Shown here piece after piece: positions 13,043 through 22,219 of a DNA stretch of 64,000 bases. The stretch covers positions 21,536-85,535 of the forward strand of contig NZ_QEAS01000011.1 of assembly GCF_003130405.1 (NCBI RefSeq), read 5' to 3'. Origin of the DNA: Pararcticibacter amylolyticus (GTDB lineage: Bacteria > Bacteroidota > Bacteroidia > Sphingobacteriales > Sphingobacteriaceae). The notes under the pieces were generated by a model that was given only the letters and a program-made list of their open reading frames with translations, was not told the origin of the DNA and did no database searches. Numbering within the stretch: position 1 is the first letter of the stretch; every line of letters begins with the position of its first letter. The translations under genes were made by a program, and so were the position numbers.

Positions 13043-13765
13043 ATGATGAAGATAAAATCTCTTGCCTGGTACTTCACTTTGCTGCTTCCTGCTCTTCTGT
13101 CGGGATGTAATCTGAATTGTGTGAACCCTTCGGGTAAAACTGCTGCCGTTACAAAAGACCTTGAGAGGTTTAGTAAAATTTCGGTTGGCGGAGCACTGAA
13201 GGTTTTTATAAAGCAAAGTGATAAGTCGTCGGTGAGTATTGAAGCAGATGAAAATGTTCTTCCCCTGATAAAAGCGCGTGTTTCAGGCGAAACGCTGGAA
13301 GTAAGGCAGGAAACTAATCTCTGTAACGCCGGGGAAGTAAAGGTATATATCACGTCGCCGGAATTTAAAGCGCTTGATCTTTCCGGTGCGGTCGAAGTAG
13401 CTAATGGCAGCCCGGTTAATGGAGAAAAGCTGGACCTCAGCCTCTCCGGCGCGAGTAAGGCCGATATCAGGGTGAATGTTGAGGAGCTTCGGACGGAGGC
13501 AAGCGGAGCTTGTGAGATTAACCTCCAGGGCCGGGCGAATAGGCACCATGTCGAAATGAGCGGAGCCGGGTCTTTGAAGGCGCCGGGATTGCAGGTTGCG
13601 GATTATCATATCGAGGGCTCAGGTGCATGCAAGCTGTCAATCCATGCAACAGAATCTCTTGACGTTAATTCCAGCGGTGCAGTTGTGGTGGAATATAAAG
13701 GGAATCCTCAACGGATAAACAATAACAGTTCAGGCGCCTCTCATTTAAAGAAGCTCGGAGAATAA
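13043..13765 (+). CDS. DUF2807 (head GIN domain) lipoprotein
   Basis: The 240-residue protein has a lipoprotein signal peptide with lipobox LLSGC. It is followed by repetitive right-handed beta-helix-like sequence in which SGA recurs (DLSGAVEV, LSLSGASKADI, SGACEIN, EMSGAGSL, GSGACKLSI, NSSGAVVVEY, NNSSGASHL). This is the DUF2807 pattern, a widespread Bacteroidota envelope family of unknown function. A second in-frame ATG lies one codon downstream. It stands alone about 90 bp after the previous operon. Confidence 0.85.
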   Translation: MMKIKSLAWYFTLLLPALLSGCNLNCVNPSGKTAAVTKDLERFSKISVGGALKVFIKQSDKSSVSIEADENVLPLIKARVSGETLEVRQETNLCNAGEVKVYITSPEFKALDLSGAVEVANGSPVNGEKLDLSLSGASKADIRVNVEELRTEASGACEINLQGRANRHHVEMSGAGSLKAPGLQVADYHIEGSGACKLSIHATESLDVNSSGAVVVEYKGNPQRINNNSSGASHLKKLGE

Positions 13766-16275: not shown

Positions 16276-17127
16276 TTACATGGCGGCTGTTGCCGTATTC
16301 TTATTAACGATTGGCCAGATAGCTGCGCCCGGAACGGGTACACTGATTCCGAGTGTTTTGCCGCGCTGCATATTGTCGGCTCCAAAATAATAGAGCGGGT
16401 TCCCCTTATACACAAGTTGTGTCTTCCCAAATACTGTGATGAGTTCGAACTGGGATTTGTCTAAAATAGAGGGAATGCTTCCGATTGTTGCAACCGGAAA
16501 GATCGGCCAGACAGCATCGTGCGTGGGATCGTTATTGGTAAACTTGTTTTGCTTAAACCGGTCTTGTATGAAAGCGTATAGCGTGTTCCCGTGAGCATCC
16601 GTCAGGTACTGTGAGAACTCTTGTCCTGCCTTCCCCTGGCTATTATACTGAACACCGTCATTTCCGACCAGCTGGGTATAAGAAATCATCACGGTGTAAT
16701 CTGCCTTGGCTACAAACCAGTTGTCGGTAACTCCATCTCCTTTCACATCGCCTGCTTTAGTATCACTTTGATAATAGTATAGAGGCCAGCCCTTATAGGT
16801 AGTCTGCTTAGCTCCGTCACTTCTCGTGATTGTTCCGAAGTCTGATGAATTTAAGCCCGTGCCCACCTTCAGATTTTCTGAATAATATGCCGGCCATGCA
16901 ATAAGACACCCGCCCGTGCAGGAAGAACTTCCGTTGGCATCGTTTGAAAAAAAGTAGAGAGCGCGGCCTTCGTTATCGGTGATGATGTCACCGAACGTTG
17001 CATTAGCAGTCAGTTTTACACCTGTTTCCTTAGTAGAAGGGGAATCTTCCTTGTCATCCTTGCATGAATACAATGACGTGAATAGTAGTACGATAGCGCA
17101 TAGAGCGCCGAATTTGGTAGCTTTCAT
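16276..17127 (-). CDS. Lipoprotein with four Yx[FWY]xxD motifs (COG4315/PF03640 type)
   Basis: The 283-residue protein has a lipoprotein signal peptide (FTSLYSCKDD, Cys22). The family motif Yx[FWY]xxD occurs four times: YFFSND (58-63), YYYQSD (117-122), YAFIQD (184-189) and YYFGAD (246-251). They are arranged as two repeats of a two-motif unit. The first unit also has the CTGGC cysteine pair (70, 74) and a WPAY segment; the second keeps WPIF but lacks the cysteines. The molecular function of this family is not established. It is divergent from the sigma factor/redox operon, which suggests shared regulation or a shared role at the cell surface. Confidence 0.82.
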   Translation of the reverse strand: MKATKFGALCAIVLLFTSLYSCKDDKEDSPSTKETGVKLTANATFGDIITDNEGRALYFFSNDANGSSSCTGGCLIAWPAYYSENLKVGTGLNSSDFGTITRSDGAKQTTYKGWPLYYYQSDTKAGDVKGDGVTDNWFVAKADYTVMISYTQLVGNDGVQYNSQGKAGQEFSQYLTDAHGNTLYAFIQDRFKQNKFTNNDPTHDAVWPIFPVATIGSIPSILDKSQFELITVFGKTQLVYKGNPLYYFGADNMQRGKTLGISVPVPGAAIWPIVNKNTATAAM

Positions 17128-17335
17128 ATGAAATGACTAAAGGGTGAATAAATATTATGTCGAAGGGATTACGGGACGGATCAGAGAAGGGTTGCCTGCC
17201 GGTTATAATTGTTTTATATTCACTTAACCTTGTGAAATATTTAAAAAAAATTGCAGCATGAGGCAACCAAGTAGTCAGTTGCTCCGTGATAGCTAAAAAA
17301 GGTTTAAAACAAAGAGCAGAGAAGAAGACTCCCCT

Positions 17336-17968
17336 ATGGGCGAAGCACAACTACAACAGCTTATAGCTGGCTGCCTGAAGCAGGATCGTAAAGATCAAAA
17401 AATGTTGTATAAGACATTTTATGGCTATGCTATGAGTATTTGTCTGCGTTATGCGGGAAACAGGTACGAGGCATCGGAGATTTTGAACCACGGTTTTTTC
17501 AAGGTGTTCTCTAATCTGAATAAATACAGTACAGACAAGCCTTTTAAGGCCTGGATTGGCAGGATTATGATGAATGCCTCGATAGATTATTACCGGAGTA
17601 ATATCAGGATGGCCAACGCCGATGATCTTGAAAAAGCTGAAAATCTGGTTCATGAGGATTTGCCGGATAAGAAGCTGCGGTACGACGATCTCCTGGCGAT
17701 GATCCAGCAGCTTCCAAATGCATACCGGACTGTTTTTAATCTGTATGCTATTGAGGGATACACTCATGAAGAAATAGCGGTCATGCTTGGAATCAGTACG
17801 GGTACATCCAAATCGAACCTGTTTAAAGCGAGGGATAAACTAAAAAGGATGATTATAGATGCGGAAGACGTATCGCGTGATGCAGGAGGTGGTGCTTACA
17901 GTGCTATTGTTGCTATCAACCCTGTTAATTTAAATGTTACTTTTTTTAACAACGGACTATTCAGATGA
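17336..17968 (+). CDS. ECF-type RNA polymerase sigma factor
   Basis: The 210-residue sigma-70 family factor has region 2 at about 25-90 (MSICLRYAGNRYEASEILNH, AWIGRIMMNASIDYYR) and region 4 at about 120-170 (QLPNAYRTVFNLYAIEGYTH, then EEIAVMLGISTGTSKSNL). The C-terminal tail of about 35 residues (DAGGGAYSAIVAINPVN) is longer than the minimal ECF. Its stop overlaps the next gene by 4 bp, so it is translationally coupled to the one-TM barrel protein, which is probably its regulator. The following YceI, DUF5777 and Rieske genes are likely in its operon or regulon. Confidence 0.92.
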   Translation: MGEAQLQQLIAGCLKQDRKDQKMLYKTFYGYAMSICLRYAGNRYEASEILNHGFFKVFSNLNKYSTDKPFKAWIGRIMMNASIDYYRSNIRMANADDLEKAENLVHEDLPDKKLRYDDLLAMIQQLPNAYRTVFNLYAIEGYTHEEIAVMLGISTGTSKSNLFKARDKLKRMIIDAEDVSRDAGGGAYSAIVAINPVNLNVTFFNNGLFR

Positions 17969-19167
17969 GAAGAGCTGACGAAAATAAGATCGATCGCCAG
18001 TTCAGGAAAGGCTTGACAGAAACTGAAGGGAATAGCACGTTCCGGGAAGAGGACTGGGATGCGATGGAGGCAATGCTTGACAAAGAACAGCGGGGCAGAA
18101 GGGGGATTGGATGGATGTACTGGATATCTGCGGGGGTAGCCGCTGTTCTTCTTATCTTGATGGTCAGAATTTTTTCTCCATCCGGAAACAATGACAACAC
18201 AACAGCGGAAAGGAATGACGGAGGGAAGAAGATGGTGCCGGGCTTAGCGGATACCGTAAAGCAGGGTGATCAGTTAGCTGAAAAGGAGATGTCGCCTGGC
18301 GATTCCGTGAAGGATCATCATCCGACAGGAAGAAAAGAAGGCGTATTGCCGGTGTCCGGCCGGTCGGATAATGGGTATGGCGTGCAGATAGCCGCAACAG
18401 GGGTTCCCGGAAGTATACCAGTGCCTGCGGGAGGTGACTCTTCTTCTTATAGTGTTCCGGAATCAATACCTGTTATCAGCCAGGCTGAGCCCCGGGAAGA
18501 GGCGGTTGAACCAGAAGAGTCCCCTGTAAAGGAGCGCACTGAAAATGTACCGGAACTTCAGGCGCCGAAGCGTGTGAAAATATCCCTCGCCCTGGTGACT
18601 GCACCTGATCTGAATGGCGTGAACTCTTTATCCGGCGGTCAGTTAGGCGTGAATGGCGGCTTATTGCTTAATCTCGATTTGCGGAAATGGCGTTTGACTA
18701 CAGGGGTTACGTATGCATCAAAGCCTTATCAGGCTAATTATAACCCGCAGGCCGGAGCTTATGGCGATTATGGTTACGGAACCCGGCAGCTGCGGCATAT
18801 TGATGCAGATTGCAAGGTGCTGGATATTCCTCTGAACGTAAGTTTTCAGTTTTTTGCCAGGGGGAAGAATGGATTGAGCGTGGGTTCGGGATTATCCTCA
18901 TACATTATGCTCAGGGAAAGGTATTCATTCACTTATACCGACTATACGGAACAAAGTTATGCTGTGGCCAACCGGAATAAACATCTTGCCGGGGTTCTTA
19001 ATCTTAACATAACCTACCAGCGCCGGTTAAATGATAAGTTCGGCCTCCTTGTGCAGCCCTATTATAAAATTCCCTTAACAGGAATAGGAAATGAAGGGAT
19101 TGATCTGCGGTCTGCGGGAGTAGCGGTAGGTGTCGGCTGGGATATCGGAAGTATGATAAAAAAGTAA
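17965..19167 (+). CDS. One-TM regulator fused to an outer-membrane-type beta-barrel domain
   Basis: The 400-residue protein has a charged cytoplasmic N-terminus of about 50 residues (REEDWDAMEAMLDKEQRG). A single membrane helix follows at about 51-70 (MYWISAGVAAVLLILMVRIF), then a Pro/Glu/Ser-rich linker to about residue 200. The C-terminal 190 residues have the strand pattern of a Bacteroidota porin-family barrel (LNLDLRKWRLTTGVTYA, VAVGVGWDIGSMIKK). The ATGA overlap with the sigma gene points to an anti-sigma role for the N-terminus. If the barrel sits in the outer membrane and the helix in the inner, the linker must span the periplasm. Similar architectures occur in this phylum; the mechanism is unproven. 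Confidence 0.75.
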   Translation: MRRADENKIDRQFRKGLTETEGNSTFREEDWDAMEAMLDKEQRGRRGIGWMYWISAGVAAVLLILMVRIFSPSGNNDNTTAERNDGGKKMVPGLADTVKQGDQLAEKEMSPGDSVKDHHPTGRKEGVLPVSGRSDNGYGVQIAATGVPGSIPVPAGGDSSSYSVPESIPVISQAEPREEAVEPEESPVKERTENVPELQAPKRVKISLALVTAPDLNGVNSLSGGQLGVNGGLLLNLDLRKWRLTTGVTYASKPYQANYNPQAGAYGDYGYGTRQLRHIDADCKVLDIPLNVSFQFFARGKNGLSVGSGLSSYIMLRERYSFTYTDYTEQSYAVANRNKHLAGVLNLNITYQRRLNDKFGLLVQPYYKIPLTGIGNEGIDLRSAGVAVGVGWDIGSMIKK

Positions 19168-19171
19168 TCAG

Positions 19172-19717
19172 ATGAAATATATTGCGATTGTGTTACTTGC
19201 CTGGCTGGGAGCCAGCCAGGCAGGCGGGGATTCCTATGTCTGTAAAAATGCGAAAGTCTCGATCTTCTCTAAAGCTCCCCTTGAGGATATTTCTGCCTTA
19301 TCAGGCAAAGCAGTATCTGTGTATAATCCGGCAACAGGCGAGCTTGTTTTCAGCGTTCCGGTGAGGTCGTTTGTCTTTGAAAAGTCCCTCATGCAGGAGC
19401 ATTTCAACGAAAATTATATGGAAAGTGATAAGTACCCGAACGCTTCTTTTAAAGGCAGGATACTTGAAAAGGTGGATGTGTCAAAAGATGGAACTTATAC
19501 GGTTAAGGCCGCGGGCGTTCTGGATGTACATGGCATTAAGCAAAACCGTACTATAGAAGGTAAAGTGCAGGTGAATAAAGGACGCTTAAAGCTCTCTTCT
19601 GAATTTATAGTGAAGTGCAAAGACCACCAGATTGATATACCCAGGCTTGTATTTCAGAAAATTGCTGAAAATATCCAGGTGAAGATTGCAGCCGATTATT
19701 CCAGATACCAGAAATAA
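19172..19717 (+). CDS. YceI family protein
   Basis: The 181-residue exported protein has a short signal peptide (IVLLAWLGASQAGG). The YceI-like lipocalin fold is suggested by MQEHFNENYMESDKYPNASF, which matches the family H-x-x-E-x-Y-L-x-x-x-x-Y-P segment, and by LDVHGIKQNRTIEGKV. YceI proteins bind isoprenoid-type lipids such as polyprenyl quinones in the periplasm. It lies 4 bp after the barrel regulator, in the sigma-factor operon. Next to DUF5777 and Rieske genes it may be a quinone carrier or sensor; that role is inferred from context. Confidence 0.88.
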   Translation: MKYIAIVLLAWLGASQAGGDSYVCKNAKVSIFSKAPLEDISALSGKAVSVYNPATGELVFSVPVRSFVFEKSLMQEHFNENYMESDKYPNASFKGRILEKVDVSKDGTYTVKAAGVLDVHGIKQNRTIEGKVQVNKGRLKLSSEFIVKCKDHQIDIPRLVFQKIAENIQVKIAADYSRYQK

Positions 19718-19738
19718 AACATATAACCCCGCATCATT

Positions 19739-20677
19739 ATGAGAAAATGTTTGTCGCTTTTTATGCTGATCCTGAGTTCTTTGCTGACGCTTGCCCAGGA
19801 TGCCCCTGCTGATTCTCTGTCCGCCGACTCTCTGATCAATGCTCTGTCCGCAGACGGGAAAGACGAAACTGTGATCGCAGCTTTTAAGTCAACCAGGCTT
19901 ATCCTGACGCCCACAAGCGAAACGATGAGGAAAAAAGATCTCAACTTTATGGTAGTCCACCGGTTTGGAGACGTGGCCGGTAAGGATGGAGGCAGCCGGA
20001 CATTATGGGGACTTGATAACTCCTCAGACATCTACATCGGATTTGAATATGGTCTTTCCGATAAGCTCGACATCTCGTTTGGAAGGAGTAAATTCGAACA
20101 GCTTCTCGATCTTGGATTTAAATATAAGGTACTGGAGCAGAAAGGTGACGGGAGTATGCCTTTTGCTCTTACCGTCATTGCGCAGATGGGTTTAAAGCCT
20201 TATGAAGTTTCAACCAACGTATTCGACGACTATACAAACCGGCTTTCCTATTTCTATCAGGCTGTATTTTCAAGAAAGTTCTCTTCCCGTTTTTCTCTTG
20301 TTGCTGCGCCCTCTTTCCTGAGGAATAATCTGCCCTTCCCTTATCTTGAAGGAAATGAGAAGAACATCTTCTCTGTTTCGGTAGCGGGAAGGTTAAAAGT
20401 GACAAAGCGGATGGGAATTGTAGCTGACTATGTTCATCCGTTCTCCTCATTCAGGAAAGACAGTAAGTCTCCGGAATTCTATGCCCCTTCAGCAATAGGA
20501 ATTGAAGTTGAAACAGGCGGGCATGTATTTACGGTGAATCTTGCTAATGCCCAGGCAATTTCACCCATTAATTACATCGCAGATACCGAATCGAAATGGA
20601 CAAAAGGGCAATACCGCATAGGCTTCACCATTACCAGGGTTTTCAGCTTCGGCAAAAAGGAGCAGAATAATTATTAA
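19739..20677 (+). CDS. DUF5777 family beta-barrel protein
   Basis: The 312-residue exported protein has a signal peptide ending LTLAQDAP, a short acidic linker with repeated DSLSADSL, and then a barrel-like domain. It starts FKSTRLILTPTSETMRKKDL and FMVVHRFGDVAG, the recognisable DUF5777 signature. Terminal strands (YRIGFTITRVFSFGKK) suit an outer-membrane barrel. The function of DUF5777 is unknown. I recall such proteins near c-type cytochromes, YceI and Rieske proteins in Bacteroidota, which fits this operon. Confidence 0.8.
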   Translation: MRKCLSLFMLILSSLLTLAQDAPADSLSADSLINALSADGKDETVIAAFKSTRLILTPTSETMRKKDLNFMVVHRFGDVAGKDGGSRTLWGLDNSSDIYIGFEYGLSDKLDISFGRSKFEQLLDLGFKYKVLEQKGDGSMPFALTVIAQMGLKPYEVSTNVFDDYTNRLSYFYQAVFSRKFSSRFSLVAAPSFLRNNLPFPYLEGNEKNIFSVSVAGRLKVTKRMGIVADYVHPFSSFRKDSKSPEFYAPSAIGIEVETGGHVFTVNLANAQAISPINYIADTESKWTKGQYRIGFTITRVFSFGKKEQNNY

Positions 20678-20700
20678 TCACCACTTTAAATAAACATCTT

Positions 20701-21135
20701 ATGGAAAGAAAAGAATTCTTGTCAAAGCTGGGGCTTGGTCTTGCGGCGGTATGCACTGGTTGCAGCATGATTGCCTGCGGCAGCGATCCGGAAGAAGAAG
20801 CAACTCCTGATCCCGGAAGCGGAGGGGATAAAGAACTGCTGACTGCCAACCTTGATTCTGAACTAAGGAATGTCGGAGACTCCAAGATGGCTAACGGTGT
20901 TATACTGGTGCGACTGGCACAAACAAATGTCCCGGCATCTTTCACTGCCGTTCAGCTGGCATGTACGCACCAGGGGTTCTCGGTCGCATATAATAATGCA
21001 CAGGGGAAATTTATTTGCCCCGCCCATGGCAGTGAATTTAATACAACGGGCGGCGTTGTACGGGGGCCTGCGACATCTGCACTAAAGCATTACACCATTT
21101 CTGTAAACGGATCTGCTCTGGCTGTTTCCGCCTGA
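20701..21135 (+). CDS. Rieske [2Fe-2S] lipoprotein
   Basis: The 144-residue protein has an N-terminal lipoprotein-type signal (LAAVCTGCSMIACGSD; Cys21 the likely lipidated residue). A complete Rieske cluster site follows: C88-T-H90 and C106-P-A-H109-G, i.e. CxH-x15-CxxH. The cluster is therefore expected on the periplasmic side of a membrane or at the surface. There is no oxygenase or cytochrome b partner alongside, so it is not part of a bc1/b6f operon. It is the last gene of the sigma-factor operon, 23 bp after DUF5777. It probably transfers electrons between an unknown donor and acceptor in the envelope. Confidence 0.92.
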   Translation: MERKEFLSKLGLGLAAVCTGCSMIACGSDPEEEATPDPGSGGDKELLTANLDSELRNVGDSKMANGVILVRLAQTNVPASFTAVQLACTHQGFSVAYNNAQGKFICPAHGSEFNTTGGVVRGPATSALKHYTISVNGSALAVSA

Positions 21136-21157: not shown

Positions 21158-22219
21158 TCAGCAGCCGGGCTTTGTCTGAGATTCGCTTTTAAGAGCATTT
21201 CGCCGGCTCATTATAGCTGCTTTGCGAAGTCTGCGAAGGATCGCTTTTCTTAATGAAGGAGGCTGCAATACCTCAACTTCATCCGCAAAACTCATAATTA
21301 AGGACTCTAATTCATAATTCTGAATTAAAAGCAGGCGGATAGTAATACTGGTAAGCGTTTCAGCAATTATTTCCTGGCTTTCGTGAAGGGATTGTGTTTT
21401 AATGTAAGGAAGTTTCGATTCATTGAATTTCAGGACGATCTCCTGTGGCTTTGAGCCATAGGAGATCGAGACACCGATGGTGTGTTTAAAATAGGTATCG
21501 TGGTCGGGGAGCTGCCTGGAGTCGTATTCGAAATCAGGCAGCATTTCAAAATCTTTTATCCTGTCGAGAGCCAGCGTTTGAATGCACTTGTGCCGGTTGT
21601 TCATTCCCAGAAGGTACCACCGGTTGCGGTATTCTTTCAGCAGACATGGATGAAATGGAAATTTCTTGTGTTTTTTAGCTCCAAAGGGCTGATAAGTGAT
21701 GCTGACAACCTGCTTTTTCAGGATTGCATCCAGTAAAGGAATGATCCATTCAACTCCGGTGCTCTCTGGAATATGTTCAAATGCTAATACTGCCTGTACC
21801 TGCCGGGCAGTACGGGAAGTGATGATCTTTTGCTCAAGGCGTTCTACCAACGATTCGAGGTTCCGGAAAAAAACGGTGCCTCTGTAGGTCTTCAGCATTT
21901 TCAGGGCGGCAGAGATATTGTGAATGTCAGTCCTCGTAATAGTGGCATTGCTGATGCGGAAGTCTTTATCCGAGTAGAAGTACTTCCCGTCTCTGACCAT
22001 TATGGGGGCTTTATATCCCAGGCTGCTTCCCCTCATTTCACTTATGTCATACTGAATGGTCCGCTTGCTTACGGTAGATCTACCCGGGTTCCCGCCTTTT
22101 TCAATAAGCGCTTCGGTACACTTTTCTGCGAGAAAATCGAGAGTGCATCCGTATCTGTTATTCTGAAGACATTCGTCTATCACGTGATAACGCAATAAAG
22201 CATCAAAGTTATAAGGCAT
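21158..22219 (-). CDS. WYL-domain transcriptional regulator
   Basis: The 353-residue protein has an N-terminal winged-helix region (about 1-85; YHVIDECLQNNRYGCTLDFL, STVSKRTIQYDISEMRGSS). A WYL domain follows at about 165-245 (VSITYQPFGAKKHKKFPFHP, RNRWYLLGMN) and a C-terminal WCX-like extension. WYL domains sense nucleic acids or nucleotide ligands and often regulate stress or defence genes. The gene is convergent with the Rieske gene and no defence genes are near, so the target is unknown. Confidence 0.88.
   Translation of the reverse strand: MPYNFDALLRYHVIDECLQNNRYGCTLDFLAEKCTEALIEKGGNPGRSTVSKRTIQYDISEMRGSSLGYKAPIMVRDGKYFYSDKDFRISNATITRTDIHNISAALKMLKTYRGTVFFRNLESLVERLEQKIITSRTARQVQAVLAFEHIPESTGVEWIIPLLDAILKKQVVSITYQPFGAKKHKKFPFHPCLLKEYRNRWYLLGMNNRHKCIQTLALDRIKDFEMLPDFEYDSRQLPDHDTYFKHTIGVSISYGSKPQEIVLKFNESKLPYIKTQSLHESQEIIAETLTSITIRLLLIQNYELESLIMSFADEVEVLQPPSLRKAILRRLRKAAIMSRRNALKSESQTKPGC

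Follow-up and report, generated by a model that had tools for sequence, protein, structure and literature searches.

A predicted Dma-type sigma/anti-sigma pair and a candidate outer-envelope electron-transfer unit in Pararcticibacter amylolyticus

Six genes of Pararcticibacter amylolyticus (Bacteroidota, Sphingobacteriaceae) lie between positions 16276 and 21135 of a 64,000-nucleotide stretch of contig NZ_QEAS01000011.1 (assembly GCF_003130405.1), referred to here as the window; the genome measures 6.3 Mb and is 97.7% complete. They encode an extracytoplasmic function (ECF) sigma factor, a 400-residue barrel protein, a YceI-like lipocalin, a DUF5777 protein and a Rieske lipoprotein on the forward strand and, divergently, a second lipoprotein. 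An original prediction had read these genes as an electron-transfer or oxidative-stress module of the outer envelope, and all six open reading frames (ORFs) were found where it had placed them. Our analysis suggests, with a probability of about 0.5, that a small electron-transfer unit of the outer envelope is under the control of a Dma-type sigma/anti-sigma pair; the most likely use of the unit would be the reduction of oxidised outer-membrane lipids or quinones. Sequence gives good support to the regulatory side of this model; its chemistry we infer.

The sigma gene (17336 to 17968, forward strand) matches Sigma70_r2 and r4_2 in Pfam and exceeds the cut-off for TIGR02937. The adjoining gene (17965 to 19167, forward strand) codes for a protein of 400 amino acids with no family match in Pfam or NCBIfam. 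An AlphaFold model built from 41 orthologues (mean predicted local distance difference test, pLDDT, 73) places helices at residues 7-18 and 28-43 of the N-terminal part, where Trp31 is invariant in the 41 aligned sequences. A further helix at residues 48-70 (18106 to 18174) fits a transmembrane segment, predicted to lie in the inner membrane, and the hydrophobic run is also visible in the sequence. It is followed by a predicted disordered tether at residues ~72-203 (131 residues rich in G, E, P and S; pLDDT blocks mostly 45-58) and by a C-terminal barrel at residues 205-393 (18577 to 19143), modelled in blocks mostly above pLDDT 90 and predicted, with support from structural matches, to be an outer-membrane barrel of the OmpA/NspA/OmpW type. 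In the available text of PMC13088901, Dma proteins consist of an anti-sigma region, a transmembrane helix, a disordered tether and a barrel, in that order; they are encoded beside ECF21-type sigma genes and are confined to Bacteroidota. Because the parts modelled in the 400-residue protein agree with this description in kind and in order, we call it Dma-like, and it is predicted to reach from the cytoplasm to the outer membrane and to form a sigma/anti-sigma pair with the ECF sigma factor. The initial label of one-transmembrane barrel protein thus captured the helix and the barrel and missed the Dma anti-sigma architecture, which would make the locus a signalling unit.

To compare the locus among relatives, 93 regions around DUF5777 were fetched for the family set, together with 80 named loci; the latter are the 80 top-ranking of 587 or more confirmed matches and so not a sample of the phylum. 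These contained 163 distinct DUF5777 genes; 13 were dropped for lying near a locus end or being too short, leaving 150 loci (86 from the family set and 64 named). DUF5777 was present in 76 of the 121 family genomes, in 75 of them above the family cut-off. Dma-like proteins and DUF5777 occur together in 60 genomes, DUF5777 alone in 15, Dma alone in two and neither in 44 (Fisher test, 2e-17, kinship ignored). The order seen in the window, sigma-Dma-YceI-DUF5777-Rieske, is common in the family set. Other arrangements place sigma-Dma divergently from (lipoprotein)-haem-c-YceI-DUF5777, or run as Rieske-DUF5777-YceI or as CHRD-haem-c-YceI-DUF5777-sigma-Dma, the last with a CHRD-domain gene at the head in L089, L101, L102 and L107; the vicinity of DUF5777 in L152 and L156 holds CHRD genes as well. 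All Rieske matches (57/57) and all YceI matches (140/140) fall within 1.5 kb of DUF5777 on the same strand, which, for loci fetched around DUF5777, indicates tight clustering within loci and not genome-wide linkage. The forward operon of the window is as compact as had been claimed: starting at the sigma gene, successive genes are joined by a 4-bp overlap and by spacers of 4, 21 and 23 bp. The idea of six genes held in so far as the set is conserved; a fixed six is too rigid, the lipoprotein gene being adjacent in only 3 of 34 Rieske-type family-set loci. In one genome of the same genus, a DUF5777 frame (L129; G020:C49, ~18008-18648) is short and interrupted, lies immediately next to a Rieske fragment and appears to be a decaying copy.

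A promoter-like motif, GGCAACC-N16-CGT, was read by eye upstream of sigma genes in relatives. In the window, GGCAACC-N16-CGT[A/G] precedes the sigma gene (GGCAACC-N16-CGTG, 17262 to 17288, forward strand, 74 nt from the 5' end of the site to the start codon) and, on the opposite strand, the divergent lipoprotein gene (GGCAACC-N16-CGTA, 17170 to 17196, reverse strand, 69 nt). Four exact copies exist in the 6.3-Mb genome; the divergent pair is noncoding and the other two lie inside ORFs. Since the only two noncoding copies are this divergent pair, the six genes appear to form a single local regulon, and a broad regulon in this genome was rejected on the same count. At loci with a Dma-like gene, the motif was found upstream of the sigma gene in 43/60 and of the lipoprotein gene in 9/11, compared to 0/60 for YceI, 0/60 for DUF5777 and 0/35 for Rieske; the background is 0.013 per stretch of equal size. 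Within 5.5 kb of DUF5777 the motif occurs at 52 of 60 loci with Dma versus 8 of 90 without, and a control using the reversed pattern gave 3/60 and 2/90, respectively. The recurrent gene order and the placement of the motif in Dma loci led us to reject a chance neighbourhood. Gene order lost in relatives, or transcripts showing separate, unrelated regulation, had been named as grounds for abandoning the prediction; as far as sequence can test, the prediction withstood this check, and the conserved order and the motif common to the divergent lipoprotein argue for a conserved, co-regulated unit.

The regulon in relatives may be wider than the sigma-Dma locus. Among the 150 sites listed in a scan of the 121 genomes, 41 lie in the gap before sigma-Dma (33 on the same strand, 8 on the opposite one) and 109 lie elsewhere, these counts being lower bounds. 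Of the 60 genomes with both, 17 have Dma away from DUF5777, for which contig breaks are a possible cause. The motif remains ahead of the distant sigma-Dma genes in G025, G081, G087 and G093, and near the DUF5777 module in G025 (L085), G061 (L069), G087 (L078) and G099 (L088). In G029, where the sigma-Dma-linked DUF5777 locus is of the haem-c type, a Rieske gene away from any DUF5777 (L231:3108-3685) carries the same promoter-like site ~128 nt upstream. The window genome itself has a second full-length sigma-Dma pair (L225:3408-5298; G000:C146) that lacks an obvious cargo operon; the 10.5 kb fetched there contain no GGCAACC-N16-CGT site. At a further place (L226:2653-4817; G000:C54), a sigma gene, an anti-sigma-like, one-transmembrane protein whose match to the Dma profile is confined to its N-terminal part and a separate ORF resembling an outer-membrane barrel may represent a split Dma.

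The strongest sequence argument that the unit moves electrons is that relatives swap two chemically different one-electron carriers. Rieske and haem-c centres share little beyond the ability to pass single electrons. Near DUF5777, the 150 loci encode a Rieske protein in 50 cases, a small haem-c protein in 83, both in 2 and neither in 15, so that 133 carry exactly one carrier type. In the family set, the 86 loci with enough flanking sequence divide into 34 with Rieske, 45 with small haem-c, one with both and six with neither; the Fisher value for this analysis, 1e-16, ignores kinship. The haem-c hidden Markov model was hand-seeded from ten neighbours, the 150-locus count accepts C-x2-6-CH, and the labels giving Rieske genes as up- or downstream are partly wrong where gene calls overlap (L071, L103). 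On the DUF5777 tree the carrier label needs at least three changes, of which two are robust; gene order is not the same in the two Rieske groups. We count two switches and not three, because one of the three rests on locus L118, where the protein labelled haem-c has 725 residues and a weak match. A small Rieske tree, in which module and non-module Rieske genes are intermixed, gives no count of how often Rieske genes were recruited. Genes for a 4Fe-4S protein and an NrfD quinol subunit accompany the unit in the deepest DUF5777 clade, where a YceI or EB_dh gene stands in front; NrfD was found in 8/150 loci, all of the haem-c type. Replacement of the Rieske protein by a haem-c protein in relatives lends indirect, sequence-based support to the proposed electron transfer. 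Strict mutual exclusion of the two carriers was rejected, as it is true of most loci and not of whole genomes.

The Rieske gene of the window (20701 to 21135, forward strand; Pfam, E 1e-10) encodes a lipoprotein with a predicted [2Fe-2S] cluster, lipobox Cys26 and ligands Cys88, His90, Cys106 and His109 in the motifs CTH and CPAH. The lipobox cysteine is invariant in the 29 sequences aligned (29/29). A disulfide cysteine pair was absent at the places examined beside the ligands in all distinct Rieske proteins (0/52), and a bc-type Rieske protein was therefore rejected. In 8 of the 52 the second ligand motif has the unusual spacing C-x6-H instead of C-x2-H, all with the Rieske-DUF5777-YceI order (L039, L040, L045, L047, L048, L050, L051 and L060). 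The window genome has three other Rieske matches: a protein that begins with a membrane region, a 504-residue frame and a small protein directly preceded by an ORF that, by eye, we take to be nitrite-reductase-like. As predicted, neither a cytochrome b nor an oxygenase was found among the ten proteins scanned, which cover the locus and its flanks. The claim that this is not a respiratory bc complex stands in part: by sequence the Rieske protein is not of the bc/b6f kind, and "not respiratory" is weakened and unsettled because the deep DUF5777 clade encodes the unit with a 4Fe-4S protein and NrfD.

DUF5777 (19739 to 20677, forward strand; Pfam, E 4e-80) is predicted to be a 12-strand barrel (mean pLDDT 85). 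Ten residues are invariant in 150/150 sequences: His74, Phe76, Gly91, Lys128, Gln134, Thr259, His262, Phe264, Asn270 and Phe296. Invariance of His262 is fairly tested only by the 86 family-set loci, since the scan pattern for the 64 named loci fixes this residue; that of His74 is unaffected. Foldseek and VIA matches include transport barrels, which reflects a common barrel fold and indicates no function. In the library searched, no paper on DUF5777 or on DUF5777 with YceI was found, and a search for YceI with Rieske gave nothing related, judged by title; the available parts of PMC8999054 and PMC12596196 contain nothing on this locus. The YceI-like lipocalin (19172 to 19717, forward strand; PF04264, 47.6 bits, above the family cut-off, E 3e-12) has an N-terminal signal peptide by eye and is one of five YceI matches in the window genome. 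The divergent lipoprotein (16276 to 17127, reverse strand), a member of the predicted regulon, belongs to Lipoprotein_15 (SCO0930-like), with four stretches matched at 118.5 bits against a cut-off of 24.4 (E 8e-35). All four Yx[FWY]xxD repeats that had been noticed are present (YFFSND, YYYQSD, YAFIQD and YYFGAD), and a solved-structure search gave no match. KDDKED follows its predicted lipid-bearing cysteine, which we take to resemble the Bacteroidota lipoprotein export signal.

We hypothesize that the Dma-like barrel senses a change or disturbance in the outer membrane and that the protein, via its tether, would release the ECF sigma factor, which could then transcribe its own operon and the divergent lipoprotein gene. 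The Rieske lipoprotein, or the haem-c lipoprotein in relatives, would pass single electrons to or from a YceI-carried lipid, probably menaquinone, at or through the DUF5777 barrel. Most likely, the unit would serve to reduce lipids or quinones of the outer membrane that have become oxidised, the role suggested for BcnA and LcoA in Burkholderia, with the Rieske or haem-c protein possibly taking the part of cytochrome b561.

Several observations weigh against this model. Only by analogy do we assign the unit a role with lipid peroxides, and the YceI ligand is a guess because a single-sequence search of solved structures with the window YceI found no solved YceI. Fifteen of the 150 loci have neither carrier and two have both, an independent-pairs sign test for carrier swaps was not significant (median p 0.5), and G004, G029, G046 and G058 hold a haem-c type locus together with a Rieske gene elsewhere. 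The Rieske gene also occurs without DUF5777. G075, for example, has sigma-Dma-Rieske in one operon (L235:2266-4541) and no DUF5777 was found in that genome, which may represent a reduced form of the module. Retention of this operon would suit a unit for envelope stress, with YceI and DUF5777 as movers of lipids or quinones and with the Rieske or haem-c protein sensing redox state for the Dma-like regulator instead of carrying electrons, and the transport barrels among the best structural matches of DUF5777, though of a common fold, point the same way. However, of the 90 loci without Dma, 63 have haem-c, 16 Rieske and one both; because such loci mostly retain the carrier, it does not depend on a neighbouring regulator, and we consider a sensor decidedly unlikely.

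A trans-outer-membrane or extracellular electron conduit, with DUF5777 supplying the barrel and the Rieske or haem-c lipoprotein the redox subunit of a minimal porin-carrier complex, and with quinol electrons fed in by NrfD-type or other inner-membrane enzymes, would account for the deep clade that joins YceI or EB_dh, haem-c, DUF5777, 4Fe-4S and NrfD genes, for the carrier exchange and for the invariant His74 and His262 in the barrel. Such a conduit is nevertheless doubtful: the carriers labelled include no multihaem cytochrome, the DUF5777 barrel has only 12 predicted strands where known conduits are larger, and the NrfD search found none near Rieske-type loci. A related proposal, which we rate as unlikely, holds that DUF5777 is a cofactor-bearing Bacteroidota outer-membrane barrel whose two invariant histidines hold haem or quinone. 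With YceI and an exchangeable Rieske or haem-c lipoprotein it would make up the smallest of electron routes, running along or through the outer membrane, with its synthesis switched by one envelope-spanning protein. The same two histidines and the haem-c neighbours could instead point to haem or iron handling, with DUF5777 binding or importing haem. This is very improbable, as a Rieske protein can stand in for haem-c, no TonB-receptor family of Pfam matches DUF5777 and none of the ten proteins scanned is such a receptor.

Outside the locus, a DUF2807 (head GIN domain) protein is encoded at 13043 to 13765, a few genes ahead, and a regulator with WYL/WCX domains at 21158 to 22219 is convergent with the Rieske gene, 22 bp apart.

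The class of Dma proteins was described recently, few of its targets are known, and the available part of PMC13088901 names no signal for it. Signal and mechanism become directly testable with a Dma-like pair that has a single-locus predicted regulon and the same motif on either strand of one intergenic gap. For DUF5777, a Bacteroidota barrel, the swap between Rieske and haem-c carriers offers an initial hint of function. Should the unit protect or reduce lipids of the outer membrane, this would explain how Bacteroidota without cytochrome b561 do the job of BcnA and LcoA.

Compared to known systems, the window Rieske protein shares the Rieske domain and four ligands with bc1/b6f proteins, its best solved match being 5cxm, named cytochrome b6/f iron-sulfur subunit, but it lacks the disulfide cysteine pair, is a lipoprotein and has no cytochrome b among the neighbours scanned. 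Porin-cytochrome conduits such as MtrCAB likewise combine a barrel with redox carriers, as predicted here at the outer membrane; here, however, the barrel has 12 strands, the carriers have one or two centres and YceI is present. The closest functional analogue, and the best-supported role found in the literature for a YceI lipocalin paired with a redox protein, is the lipid-peroxyl detoxification pair BcnA (a YceI lipocalin) and LcoA (a cytochrome b561) of Burkholderia. In the available text of PMC9113575, loss of LcoA raises lipid peroxidation and the authors suggest that the b561 re-reduces a quinone held by the lipocalin. Both systems encode a YceI lipocalin with a redox protein in the envelope, but here a Rieske or haem-c partner takes the place of cytochrome b561, and a DUF5777 barrel and Dma-like control are added. 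A search of the entire window genome for cytochrome b561 (PF01292) gave no match at E 1e-3, nor was one seen among the flanking genes scanned. The regulatory pair resembles the Dma/Das pairs of Bacteroides thetaiotaomicron in domain order, in its adjoining ECF sigma gene and in occurring in Bacteroidota; Dma1/2 are likened to the 400-residue protein by architecture as described, and the adjoining gene here is assigned to ECF sigma factors generally. In the available portion of PMC13088901, the known effects of Dma/Das concern outer-membrane vesicle biogenesis, NigD1 and polysaccharide loci, whereas the regulon predicted here is one locus of redox genes.

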